From Lacrimispora sphenoides JCM 1415 (GTDB lineage: Bacteria; Bacillota; Clostridia; Lachnospirales; Lachnospiraceae): a DNA stretch of 64,000 nucleotides. The DNA is taken from NCBI RefSeq assembly GCF_900105615.1, contig NZ_LT630003.1, forward strand, positions 5,086,001-5,150,000, given 5' to 3'. Made by a program: the position numbers and the translations under genes. Numbering within the stretch: position 1 is the first letter of the stretch; each line of letters starts with the position of its first letter. The notes beneath the pieces were generated by a model. It worked only from the letters and a program-made list of their open reading frames with translations, had not been told where the DNA came from and did not search any database. Below are positions 16,648-26,204 of this stretch, one piece after another.

Positions 16648-17268
16648 ATGAAAAATCCGCTAAATTATCAGGTCACGGAATACGACTGCGGCCCGACTAC
16701 ATTACTGAATGCAATGAGTTATCTCTTCACCCGGGATCAGATTCCGCCGGATATCATCAAACATATTATGCTGTTTTGTCTTGATTCCTATAATGCCAAG
16801 GGGGAGTTCGGGAAAAATGGAACCTCACGTATGGCTATGATGTTTTTTAGCAACTGGATCAACCAATTCGGAAAGATGAAAAAATTCCCGGTTCAAAGTG
16901 AATATCTGACTGGGGACGAAGTGTTTATAGGAGAAAACAGCAAGATCATGTATGGACTGCAGCAGGACGGAGTTGTGGTGGCGCGTGTGATGTTAGGCTG
17001 CTGGCACTATGTACTGGTAACAGGGGCCGATGAGGAAAATGTTTATTTATTTGATCCTTATTTCAGAAAGAAGCCTTTTAAGCAAAAGGGATTGGAGCTG
17101 ATCACAGATATGCCTTACCATAGGAACCGGTGTGTGCCATGGGAAATGTTTAATGACACGGGAAAGGGTACTTATGCCCTTGGACCCAAGGAAACAAGGG
17201 AGGCTGTCATCATATTTAACAGGGTGACACAGAAGAAACCGGCAGATACCATTGAATATTTCATTTGA
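16648..17268 (+). CDS. C39-like cysteine peptidase domain protein
   Basis: 206 residues, starting at 16648 after GAAGGAAG; an ATG at 16618 lacks a site. The Peptidase_C39-like triad is visible: Cys in TEYDCGPTTLLNAMSYLF (residue 13), His in GCWHYVLVTGAD and Asp in NVYLFDPYF. No signal peptide, transmembrane segment or ABC domain is present, so it is probably a cytoplasmic protein or works on a peptide substrate not encoded next to it. The AspRS leader promoter overlaps its stop codon. Confidence 0.75.
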   Translation: MKNPLNYQVTEYDCGPTTLLNAMSYLFTRDQIPPDIIKHIMLFCLDSYNAKGEFGKNGTSRMAMMFFSNWINQFGKMKKFPVQSEYLTGDEVFIGENSKIMYGLQQDGVVVARVMLGCWHYVLVTGADEENVYLFDPYFRKKPFKQKGLELITDMPYHRNRCVPWEMFNDTGKGTYALGPKETREAVIIFNRVTQKKPADTIEYFI

Positions 17269-17293
17269 CAATATACGCTCTTTGTGATAACCT
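17265..17293 (+). promoter_or_regulatory. Promoter of the AspRS leader transcript
   Basis: Perfect TTGACA (17265-17270) overlaps the C39-like stop codon. A 17-base spacer leads to TAACCT (17288-17293), a weak -10 box. It predicts a transcript start near 17300, shortly before the leader ORF, and an untranslated leader of about 300 bases before the synthetase gene. Confidence 0.55.
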
Positions 17294-17322
17294 GAATCAA
17301 ATTATAAATGGAGGCAGCTATT

Positions 17323-17370
17323 ATGAATCAACATCAACAACTTAAAAAGTTGAATTGGGACGACGATTGA
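17323..17370 (+). CDS. 15-residue leader peptide with C-terminal Asp triplet
   Basis: The ORF reads MNQHQQLKKLNWDDD then TGA. GGAGG lies eight bases before the ATG, so it should be translated well. The last three sense codons are GAC GAC GAT, and the stop codon is one base away from the first attenuator stem. The gene downstream encodes an aspartyl-tRNA synthetase. Asp codons at the exact point where a ribosome would affect RNA folding are the mark of a leader peptide that senses charged tRNA-Asp. Expression is not shown; it could alternatively be a short unrelated peptide. Confidence 0.7.
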   Translation: MNQHQQLKKLNWDDD

Positions 17371-17371
17371 C

Positions 17372-17489
17372 AGCGCTTGTATCTGTGACAAACCACAGGT
17401 GCAAGCGCTAAAAGCGTTGCGCCTATGTGGATAGAATATTTAGGACCACATTGGTAAATTTAATTTGCTCGTGTGGTTCTATTTTTTTT
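17372..17489 (+). promoter_or_regulatory. Attenuator with alternative stems and terminator ahead of AspRS gene
   Basis: Stem 1:2 pairs 17372-17387 (AGCGCTTGTATCTGTG) with 17394-17409 (CACAGGTGCAAGCGCT), 16 pairs with two G-U. Stem 2:3 pairs 17393-17408 with 17414-17430, 15 pairs with small bulges. Stem 3:4 pairs 17422-17430 (CCTATGTGG) with 17446-17454 (CCACATTGG), 8 of 9. Stem 4:5 pairs 17441-17450 (TAGGACCACA) with 17472-17481 (TGTGGTTCTA) and runs into eight T, an intrinsic terminator. Neighbouring stems exclude one another. No T-box consensus is present. A 110-base stretch without visible features separates it from the synthetase start. Confidence 0.75.
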
Positions 17490-17600
17490 ACCCATACGAG
17501 AAAGGGAAAGGTTGTGATCGTATGGGACATATTGATGATGTCCTTATGGATATATTTATAGCAATAAAAATAAAATAATAATAATCCAGGAGGAAAGACA

Positions 17601-18926
17601 ATGAAGAGTATCATTGGAGAAATCAAAGAGATAACCGTTGAGGCGGAGGAATTAATAAACCATATCGGTGAAACTATAAGAATTCATGGAAGCATCTATA
17701 AAATCAGGAAAATGAGCGATTTTGCTTTTGTACTATTAAGAACGAAACGTAACGTGGTTCAGTGCATTTATTCTAAGGAAATTTCCCGGTTTTCTCTTGA
17801 TGAAATAAAGGAAGAGAGCAGCGTAATCGTGACTGCTTGTGTCAAAGGGGAAGAAAGATCCAGAACAGGCTATGACCTTCAGATAATTGGCATAGAGATA
17901 TTATCAAAGCCGGAAGAGCAAAGCCCAGTTGTAATAAATAATAAATGTGTAGATACTTCTATGGAAACTCTGCTTAATTTCAGGCCGGTTACGCTTCGTA
18001 ACGAAAAAGAACGTGCTATTTTTAAGCTGCAGGAAGGGATCACTTATGGAATACGTGAGTTCTTAAAAAAGGAAAAATTTACAGAAATCCGTACGCCTAA
18101 AATCGTTTATGCAGGCGCTGAAGGCGGAGCAAATATTTTCCGCTTAGACTATTTCGGCAGAGAGGCATATTTAGCTCAAAGCCCGCAATTTTACAAGCAG
18201 ATGATGGTAGGCGTTTTTGAAAGAGTGTATGAAATTGCTCCGGTTTTCCGGGCGGAAAAACATGATACCTCCAGGCATTTGAATGAATATACAAGCGTGG
18301 ATTTTGAAATGGGGTACATTTGCAGTTTTGAAGACATTATGCAGATGGAAACGATGATGCTAAAATATGTAATGGAATATTTAAATGAACAATATGAAGA
18401 TGAAATAAGGCTGTTAAAAGTGAAGCTGCCTGTAATCAAAGAGATTCCGGCGATTAAATTTAAAGAAGCAAAAGAATTGATTTCAATGGAGTATCATAGA
18501 CCTATAAAAGATTTTGATGATTTTGAGCCGGAAGAAGAAAAACTTCTTTACGAGCTGATAAAGCAGAAAACAGGAAGTGAATTTGTATTTGTAACCCATT
18601 ATCCAAGCAAAAAGAGACCCTTTTATGCCATGGATAGCATGGAGAATGAGGAGGAAACCTTAAGCTTTGACCTTTTATTCCGTGGACTGGAAATAACAAC
18701 AGGCGGTCAAAGAATTCATGGGTATAAGGAACAGATTGATAAAATGGAACGCAGAGGCATGAATACAGAATTATTTGAAAGCTATCTTATAATGCATAAA
18801 TATGGGATGCCGCCGCATGGAGGCCTGGGCCTGGGCCTGGAACGTTTTACAAGCAAGCTGCTTGAACAGGAGAATGTGCGGTTTTCCACCTTGTTTCCAA
18901 GAGATATTAACCGGCTGATTCCATAG
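17601..18926 (+). CDS. Aspartyl-tRNA synthetase, archaeal/non-discriminating type
   Basis: Class IIb aminoacyl-tRNA synthetase of 441 residues. The N-terminal OB-fold anticodon domain (about 1-110) contains GETIRIHGSIYKIRKMSDFAFVLLR. The catalytic domain shows AGAEGGANIFRLDYFGREAYLAQSPQFYKQMM, motif 2 FRAEKHDTSRHLNEYTSVDFEM and motif 3 GLGLGLERF. The short size and lack of the bacterial GAD insertion place it with archaeal-type AspRS (AspS2), known in some clostridia as a second enzyme making Asp-tRNA(Asn) for GatCAB; AsnRS is the alternative. Good AGGAGG site. The leader suggests control by tRNA-Asp charging. Confidence 0.82.
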   Translation: MKSIIGEIKEITVEAEELINHIGETIRIHGSIYKIRKMSDFAFVLLRTKRNVVQCIYSKEISRFSLDEIKEESSVIVTACVKGEERSRTGYDLQIIGIEILSKPEEQSPVVINNKCVDTSMETLLNFRPVTLRNEKERAIFKLQEGITYGIREFLKKEKFTEIRTPKIVYAGAEGGANIFRLDYFGREAYLAQSPQFYKQMMVGVFERVYEIAPVFRAEKHDTSRHLNEYTSVDFEMGYICSFEDIMQMETMMLKYVMEYLNEQYEDEIRLLKVKLPVIKEIPAIKFKEAKELISMEYHRPIKDFDDFEPEEEKLLYELIKQKTGSEFVFVTHYPSKKRPFYAMDSMENEEETLSFDLLFRGLEITTGGQRIHGYKEQIDKMERRGMNTELFESYLIMHKYGMPPHGGLGLGLERFTSKLLEQENVRFSTLFPRDINRLIP

Positions 18927-25715: not shown

Positions 25716-26204
25716 GTTTGCGCGCCATGGGCGCGCTCTTATGGGTGCAAGTCCCAAACATGCCCAGGTAGTGGGAAATGTATAGCTAAACAGCAAGGGT
25801 GTCCATCGTGAGGTGGAATCTGAAGGAAGCTGTAAGCAAACCTCTGGTCTGACGGACAGAAATCGCATATAAGGCTAGGCTTTGAGAGATAAGTTGGCAA
25901 AAGACAACGAAGTCTAATAACTACCACATTTGTAGAAGCAGAGTAAATGCGGCGGATATATGGAGGGAAAGAGCGTGCACCTTAAGCGTGGAGGTCTCAC
26001 AGCGGTTTCATTAGCCGAGTAACAACGAACTGTGAGAAGTCAGCCGAGTCCATAGTAGTGAAGAAGTTTCTGTAATGGAAATGGAGCGAAGGGGCGAACA
26101 ATCAATCAGTTGGAGTAGGTCTCGTATTGCAGAAATGACAACATCTGCCGTAATCAATCGGGATAATGGTGGTCAAATTTAGCGAGACGGAAAGGAAACA
26201 ATGC

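Follow-up and report, generated by a model that had tools for sequence, protein, structure and literature searches.

What controls the auxiliary aspartyl-tRNA synthetase gene of Lacrimispora sphenoides JCM 1415? The window analyzed here, a stretch of 64,000 nucleotides from contig NZ_LT630003.1, carries an aspS2-type gene at 17601-18926 of the forward strand, assigned with NCBIfam and Pfam. It matches NCBIfam PRK05159 with 554.8 bits against a cutoff of 353, in agreement with the AspRS gene named in the initial annotation, and NCBIfam gives the product of such genes as aspartate--tRNA(Asn) ligase. The same genome holds six further matches to this gene, one of them a 57% identical AspS2 paralog followed directly by a gatC-like reading frame (locus L002); others are taken, from match length and identity, as a bacterial-type AspRS, an AsnRS and a LysRS. 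The leader-bearing gene is one of two AspS2-type copies in the genome. Comparison with related loci suggests, with high probability, that the element upstream of it is a ribosome-mediated transcription attenuator that senses tRNA-Asp charging and controls this auxiliary synthetase.

Organization of the aspS2 leader region

All parts of the leader lie on the forward strand. A 15-codon reading frame, ORF1 (MNQHQQLKKLNWDDD-stop, 17323-17370), begins at ATG 17323 behind the Shine-Dalgarno sequence GGAGG (17310-17314). It ends in three aspartate codons, GAC GAC GAT (17359-17367), with the stop codon TGA (17368-17370) directly after them. Segments 1 (17372-17387) and 2 (17394-17409) form a 16-bp stem just past the stop. 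Segment 2 can alternatively pair with segment 3 (17413-17430), and segment 3 with segment 4 (about 17444-17458) as an antiterminator. Segment 4 is also the partner of segment 5 (17467-17481), the 3' arm of an intrinsic terminator closed by eight T (17482-17489). Direct folding places the terminator hairpin at 17441-17481, though a consensus scan listed no terminator in the leader region. The same scan listed no promoter at 17265-17270, where the promoter-like TTGACA of the initial annotation, a possible -35 sequence, is nevertheless present. Each of the other parts named so far had been proposed earlier from this DNA alone; they were read or folded directly here, and they recur in relatives. 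Between the terminator and the gene stands a second small reading frame, ORF2 (MGHIDDVLMDIFIAIKIK-stop, 17522-17578), with the ribosome-binding region GAAAGGGAAAGGTTGTGATCGT (17500-17521).

The window leader folded at -71.3 kcal/mol (z = -7.54), and none of 200 shuffled sequences folded as well. No Rfam family was found at gathering level in the leader region, and no known Rfam leader or riboswitch reached its gathering score in the homologous loci scanned. Five sub-threshold Rfam matches in the leader region make no sense there, and relaxed thresholds likewise returned nothing useful for the leader. The window leader contains no TGGNACCGCG sequence and no Rfam match, as expected from the earlier remark that a T-box consensus is missing; Rfam also made no T-box call in L002 or in the f29 loci described below, which do carry the motif. 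Elsewhere in the window, two group II intron D1-D4 matches (RF02001 and RF01998) were observed at 25802-26094.

Conservation of ORF1 and its Asp codons

Relatives were the best 80 AspS2 loci from a longer list obtained by scanning genome contigs, mostly from Lachnospiraceae. An upstream ORF with Arg or Lys followed by Asp-Asp-Asp near its end was present at 71 of these best 80 loci. Together with L061, found by the motif, and L055 (TDDDR, GAT GAT GAT), 73 of the best 80 have a leader with Asp codons, which bears out the conservation of these codons that had been proposed as a check. On their contigs, six of the remaining seven loci (L025, L074, L076, L084, L086 and L087) are preceded by no more than 641 bases, and the seventh, L077, has just an RDND-like ORF upstream. 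The Asp-codon motif has a single mismatch-free occurrence in the window's genome.

The coding signature was assessed in 72 leaders, comprising the window and 71 loci from the best 80. Because these loci were chosen for having an in-frame stop at most 60 nt downstream, that stop is in part a product of the selection, unlike the upstream start. A Shine-Dalgarno sequence plus start codon 7-14 codons upstream was found in frame 0 in 69 of the 72 leaders, versus 3 and 4 in frames 1 and 2. No stop interrupted the eight upstream codons of frame 0 in any of the 72, versus 17 and 25 stop-free leaders in the other two frames. These signatures indicate that the ORF1 frame is coding across the relatives. 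A short ORF with Shine-Dalgarno sequence and start thus precedes the gene, and its translation is predicted from sequence.

The first Asp codon stands 13 nt from stem 1:2 in 72/72 leaders, in ungapped columns of the alignment. The stop codon, in contrast, follows after 0, 1, 4, 6 or 8 extra codons past the Asp block in 9, 36, 21, 5 and 1 leaders, respectively. A constant distance from stop to stem, as suggested in the initial annotation, was therefore not observed; the constant is the distance from Asp codon to stem. Base 30 of the alignment is a purine, giving TAA or TAG, in 23 of 27 leaders without an earlier stop versus 13 of 45 with one (Fisher p = 6e-6). A stop-positioned ribosome would overlap the stem by 9-33 nt in all 72 leaders if its edge lies, as assumed, at A-site +12.

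Codon usage in the 72 leaders was close to uniform: AGG in 70, GAC at the first Asp in 72, GAC (68) or GAT (4) at the second, and GAT at the third in 72. Arg or Lys directly precedes DDD in 71 of the 72; the window has W in this place, and the near-identical loci L055 and L211 have T. Distant members vary in the codon before DDD (CGA, AGA or AAA) and, synonymously, in the Asp block itself (GAC GAT GAT in L165; GAT GAT GAT in L055 and L211). The peptide upstream of the codon block diverges widely among relatives. The near-invariant AGG GAC GAC GAT of close relatives exceeds the needs of codon reading alone and is not fully explained. We asked whether GACGAC pairs with segment 3, which would account for this nucleotide invariance, and rejected the idea, as several segment 3 variants cannot pair and the codons are kept.

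Alternative pairings of the leader RNA

Pairing 1:2 was the most strongly supported by covariation: 92.5% of cells were paired, both sides had changed at 9 of 16 pairs, and none of 500 shuffles scored as high on any measure. For 2:3, 90.2% of cells were paired and 65 were double-changed, and none of 500 shuffles was as high for cells and score; on weaker measures, 75/500 shuffles reached the number of double-changed pairs and 140/500 the number of pair types. Pairing 3:4 was assessed in 69 leaders, the three without a detected terminator being left out. Complementarity of segments 3 and 4 to their own partners was 18.6 versus 15.2 for swapped partners (sd 0.34, maximum 16.3 of 1000), and own 3:4 beat all 100 shuffles of segment 3 in just 35 of the 69. 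The two segments change together in variant lineages, GCCTATGCGG occurring with CCGCATTGGT and CGTGGTCCTT with AGGGACCATG. Terminators were detected in 69 of the 72 leaders. The covariation that the initial annotation had envisaged was accordingly found for 1:2, 2:3 and 3:4. The pairings are mutually exclusive, and one of them is an intrinsic terminator.

Folding was repeated with a ribosome placed on the leader. Past a ribosome stalled at the first Asp codon, 1:2 formed in 70/72 leaders and 3:4 in 65/72. Past a ribosome at the stop codon, 2:3 formed in 67/72, and 3:4 was absent in just 47/72. For the window leader this state is borderline and turns on one base of the assumed ribosome edge: 2:3 wins when folding begins at 17382, and one base more upstream yields part of 1:2 with 3:4. 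The window leader folded up to 17459 with segment 1 uncovered gave 1:2 plus 3:4. At full length its MFE structure was 1:2 with 4:5, the terminator (-19.9) beating 3:4 (-10.0). Because the full-length terminator outweighs 3:4, antitermination would have to be kinetic, taking place before segment 5 is made. In classical attenuators antitermination likewise acts before the last segment of the terminator exists.

Proposed mechanism

Comparison of the leaders documents the ORF, its Asp codons, the fixed codon-to-stem distance, the alternative pairings, the terminator and, in the relatives described below, cognate codon swaps; we infer stalling, polarity, kinetics and the response of the gene to Asp-tRNA. 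When Asp-tRNA is scarce, the ribosome would halt once the first Asp codon occupies its A site, and its front would come to lie just short of stem 1:2, which would stay formed. With 1:2 intact, segment 3 would be free to pair with segment 4, and terminator 4:5 would be delayed beyond the decision point. With abundant Asp-tRNA, the ribosome would reach the stop codon and cover at least 9 nt of segment 1. Pairing 2:3 would then form, segment 4 would be released to segment 5, and transcription would end at about 17489. A stalled ribosome would thus turn the gene on, which is the physiologically sensible direction for a synthetase.

Distribution of the element and of T-box motifs

An exact DNA pattern found the element in just 8 of 299 family genomes, and covariance models were therefore used instead. 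Model R1 detected the element in 24/299 family genomes at E <= 0.01, 19 of them at E <= 4e-6. Among the five weaker matches, L125 and L127 were inspected and judged to be chance. AspS2 protein matches at E <= 1e-80 were present in 97 of the 299 genomes. The 15 genomes whose best AspS2 match exceeds 560 bits (59-100% identity, nearly full length) all belong to the 19, and 545 bits is the next score below them. G021, G046 and G114, with partial AspS2 matches of 59-61% identity and lower scores, are without the element. That leaves four of the 19: G164, whose AspS2 lies in two pieces; G272, with a partial match to a more divergent AspS2; G250, where the gene is a bacterial-type AspRS; and, as a candidate, G048 (locus L121).

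A tree of 36 AspS2 proteins, 20 leader-bearing rows (window included) and 16 without the leader, separated the two sets with support of 100/100. By word search, a T-box motif stands upstream of all 16 sampled members of the sister clade, the window genome's own paralog included, and in just 1 of the 72 leader-bearing upstream regions.

Codon swaps before other synthetase genes

Among 391 genomes of the class, R1 matched six at E <= 0.001, in one of them before a HisRS gene with the leader MIYAVVAKLNNHIHHHRKGACS. Leaders of its HisRS relatives read MICPIVSKLNNHIHHHRKRACS, MICTIISKLNNHIHHHRKRACS and MLNVLINTIQHHHNKRLRP, with CAT and CAC exchanged; upstream DNA of HisRS homologs was read for L169, L171, L172 and L173, and L174-L182 lie outside the count (ORF listing for L174 and L176). 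Model R2, built without the codon block, matched 22 of the 391 genomes at E <= 0.02. Its matches include HHH leaders before HisZ at L207, L209 and L215 (by NCBIfam) and L214 (by resemblance to L207), a CPSPS leader before ProRS at L217, and a TDDDR leader before AspS2 at L211. At L200 (1634-1834), a short ORF resembling only the C-terminal anticodon-binding domain of HisRS (PF03129, E 1e-5) follows an HHH leader. L202 carries its counterpart, by resemblance, also with an HHH leader.

HHH is present in 10/10 His-gene loci found with the scaffold (four HisRS, four HisZ and two HisRS-CTD-like). In eleven His/Pro leaders the control codon lies 13-16 nt from the stem, with the last HHH triplet as the reference point; three His leaders have a further His codon upstream of HHH. 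The DDD leader itself also precedes a bacterial-type AspRS, at L118. Control codons thus match the gene for DDD, HHH and CPSPS, and the match is not clean for the f29, LysRS and NSS leaders.

The f29 leaders (KLNNGYNI, KLNRGDNI and NLNHGDNI) precede AspRS with GYN or GDN, a poor fit to the codon rule, and the distance to the stem is 10 nt in the two measured. Bacterial-type AspRS genes stand behind the scaffold with GYN or GDN, not DDD, at L166 (by NCBIfam) and at L167, L168 and L183-L186 (by resemblance). A T-box-like TGGTACCGCGG follows the f29-type scaffold in all six upstream regions read (L166, L167, L168, L183, L184 and L186), placing two devices in tandem; Rfam made no T-box call at f29 loci despite this motif. 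At L192 a LysRS gene lies behind the same scaffold with the leader MRNVANLQYKRYRQRLI, which has a single Lys codon and fits poorly. A possible member at L208 has the leader MNYINNFNLKIQIFFNNHFR before a sodium-dependent (NSS-type) transporter.

Eight R2 matches (L203, L204, L205, L206, L210, L212, L213 and L221) were judged false for want of a fitting leader ORF or gene, L203 lying inside a HisZ-like gene; the matches L218 and L220 (G510) fall outside the inspected set. A third model, R3, consisting of the Asp leaders minus the codon block, gave E values between 2e-9 and 8e-4 for the His, Pro and Lys relatives, and matched none of 13 loci not picked by R1 or R2 (L002-L005 and L097-L105) at E up to 1. 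It scored chance hairpins that R1 or R2 had picked from hundreds of genomes as well (L204, 5.5e-9; L127, 2e-7). Since chance hairpins score equally well, R3 alone cannot prove common descent. It is the ORF, its codons, segments 3-5 and the gene that separate true relatives from chance hairpins.

The segments that the leaders share, and the KLN...R[K/Q] frame that some of them show, suggest one common ancestor. A wider reading is that these leaders form a homologous, re-targetable attenuator family in Clostridia. A constant five-segment relay would be preceded, 13-16 nt before stem 1, by a short codon block (DDD, HHH, P-S-P, perhaps others), re-aimed among AspRS, HisRS, HisZ and ProRS by codon swaps. 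At aspS2 it would be joined by another ORF with Asp codons, adjacent to the gene, with a possible effect on translation. We put this forward tentatively, as close to an even call that leans slightly to doubt. Read in this way, the codon block would be a ribosome-read counterpart of the T-box specifier.

A second Asp-containing ORF upstream of aspS2

A search of 81 loci (the window and the best 80) found ORF2 in 60, behind a strong ribosome-binding site and with the pattern M[G/R/W]H-x-D-[D/Y]-[V/A]-x-x-D; in the window, Asp occupies codons 5, 6 and 10. The search pattern fixed parts of codons 1-7, and Asn at codon 5 would have passed. Codon 5 encoded Asp in 60/60 (GAC 36, GAT 24), as did codon 10, which lies outside the pattern (GAT 55, GAC 5). 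A stricter ORF2 pattern occurred in 4 of 150 family genomes, always adjoining a leader-bearing aspS2; the other leader-bearing genomes among those 150 gave no exact match to it. ORF2 may, as a guess, be a second Asp sensor acting on translation.

A possible hairpin in ORF2 codons 2-8 (17525-17530 with 17538-17543 in the window) shows some compensatory changes and was present in just 23/60 MFE folds. The Shine-Dalgarno sequence of aspS2 was paired over at least 5 nt in 36/60 MFE folds, with varied partners. Given these varied partners and the 23 folds with the hairpin, neither an anti-Shine-Dalgarno model for ORF2 nor the hairpin is put forward as demonstrated.

Alternative explanations

The same attenuator might operate with the opposite polarity, so that a ribosome at the Asp codons would break 1:2 open and bring about termination while a free leader reads through. 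The layout permits this to some extent: with no ribosome on segment 1, the five segments give 1:2 plus 3:4 (the fold to 17459), and the exact ribosome edge is an assumption. The spacing of control codon and stem (13 nt in 72/72 Asp leaders, 13-16 nt in 11 His/Pro leaders) argues the other way, since at this distance a ribosome at the first control codon would just abut the stem. A reversed switch would, moreover, turn the synthetase off while its product is scarce, and we regard it as improbable.

If the leader were a ligand- or protein-binding RNA, a riboswitch or a site of AspS2 autoregulation with the ORF secondary, binding would take place at the invariant AGGGACGACGAT. Its near-invariance at the nucleotide level in the 72 leaders agrees with this, but ORF1 has a strong coding signature, distant members keep the residues but not the codons (CGA, AGA or AAA before DDD; the Asp blocks of L165 and of L055 and L211), His or Pro codons fill the block before cognate genes in relatives, and the leader region has no Rfam match. 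Such a binding RNA is, by a small step, even less probable than reversed polarity. A nascent-peptide or antibiotic-induced arrest leader of the erm/cat type, guarding a resistant extra synthetase, could account for a gene that is one of two AspS2-type copies and for Arg or Lys before DDD in 71/72 leaders. The peptide upstream of the codon block, however, varies widely, the codon block tracks the amino acid of the gene in most relatives, and W (window) or T (L055 and L211) can replace the residue before DDD. No conserved arrest peptide independent of the amino acid of the gene was found in these leaders, and we consider this explanation very improbable, the least likely of the three. An attenuator in which the stalled ribosome switches the gene on remains our preferred reading. 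It was proposed in the initial annotation and is now supported by the conserved codons, the codon-to-stem distance, covariation and the codon swaps, its stalled-on logic being a deduction.

Discussion

The trp and his attenuators of E. coli work by ribosome-mediated transcription attenuation. The leader described here resembles them in having an ORF with tandem cognate codons, alternative hairpins, an intrinsic terminator and the ribosome as predicted sensor. It differs in placing its control codons immediately before the first stem rather than inside it. The untranslated trp leader terminates, whereas the five segments here predict that an untranslated leader reads through. Like the T-box riboswitch, which stands as a motif upstream of the sampled sister AspS2 clade, the element would sense tRNA charging; unlike the T-box, its predicted sensor is a translated ORF.

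Leader-peptide attenuation was described in the initial annotation as rare in Firmicutes, with none known for AspRS. The first part is tempered by precedents. His leader peptides have been predicted for hisS*/hisZ in bacilli (PMC2965389). Predictions for his operons cover the B. cereus group, Erysipelotrichales and some Eubacteriales, Peptostreptococcaceae among them (PMC9413887). As far as the passages concerned describe them, these are Firmicutes leader peptides in place of T-boxes, partly for synthetase paralogs, as here; they differ in being for histidine only, and neither an Asp or Pro member nor a common RNA scaffold with swapped codons appears in those descriptions. A leucine-rich attenuator of ilv-leu in S. 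aureus, studied with mutants and lux reporters (PMC5794164), is likewise leader-peptide attenuation in a Firmicute, differing, in the part of the paper that presents it, by its biosynthetic operon and Leu codons. The predicted uORFC-8-2 motif upstream of cysS in Rhodobacterales (PMC8632094) also places a synthetase gene behind a leader with tandem cognate codons, and differs, by its summary there, in being alphaproteobacterial and using Cys codons. For aspS itself, one of three C. acetobutylicum copies is reported under a T-box (PMC2494555), and a Shewanella prediction lists the gene just as 'tRNA synthetase leader' (PMC2659441). The second part of the earlier statement stood: searches of the open-access literature, several of them with strict word combinations that returned nothing, found no leader-peptide attenuator for AspRS in Firmicutes, which does not imply absence from print.

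Two sister clades of one synthetase family, both represented in the window's genome, thus appear to have different sensors, a T-box motif in one and a translated leader in the other. The leaders would extend leader-peptide attenuation to AspRS and, in one locus, to ProRS. The codon swaps among relatives may serve as a natural experiment on how specificity changes in ribosome-read regulators, and a codon block 13-16 nt before stem 1 provides a sequence rule by which more such switches may be found in Clostridia.
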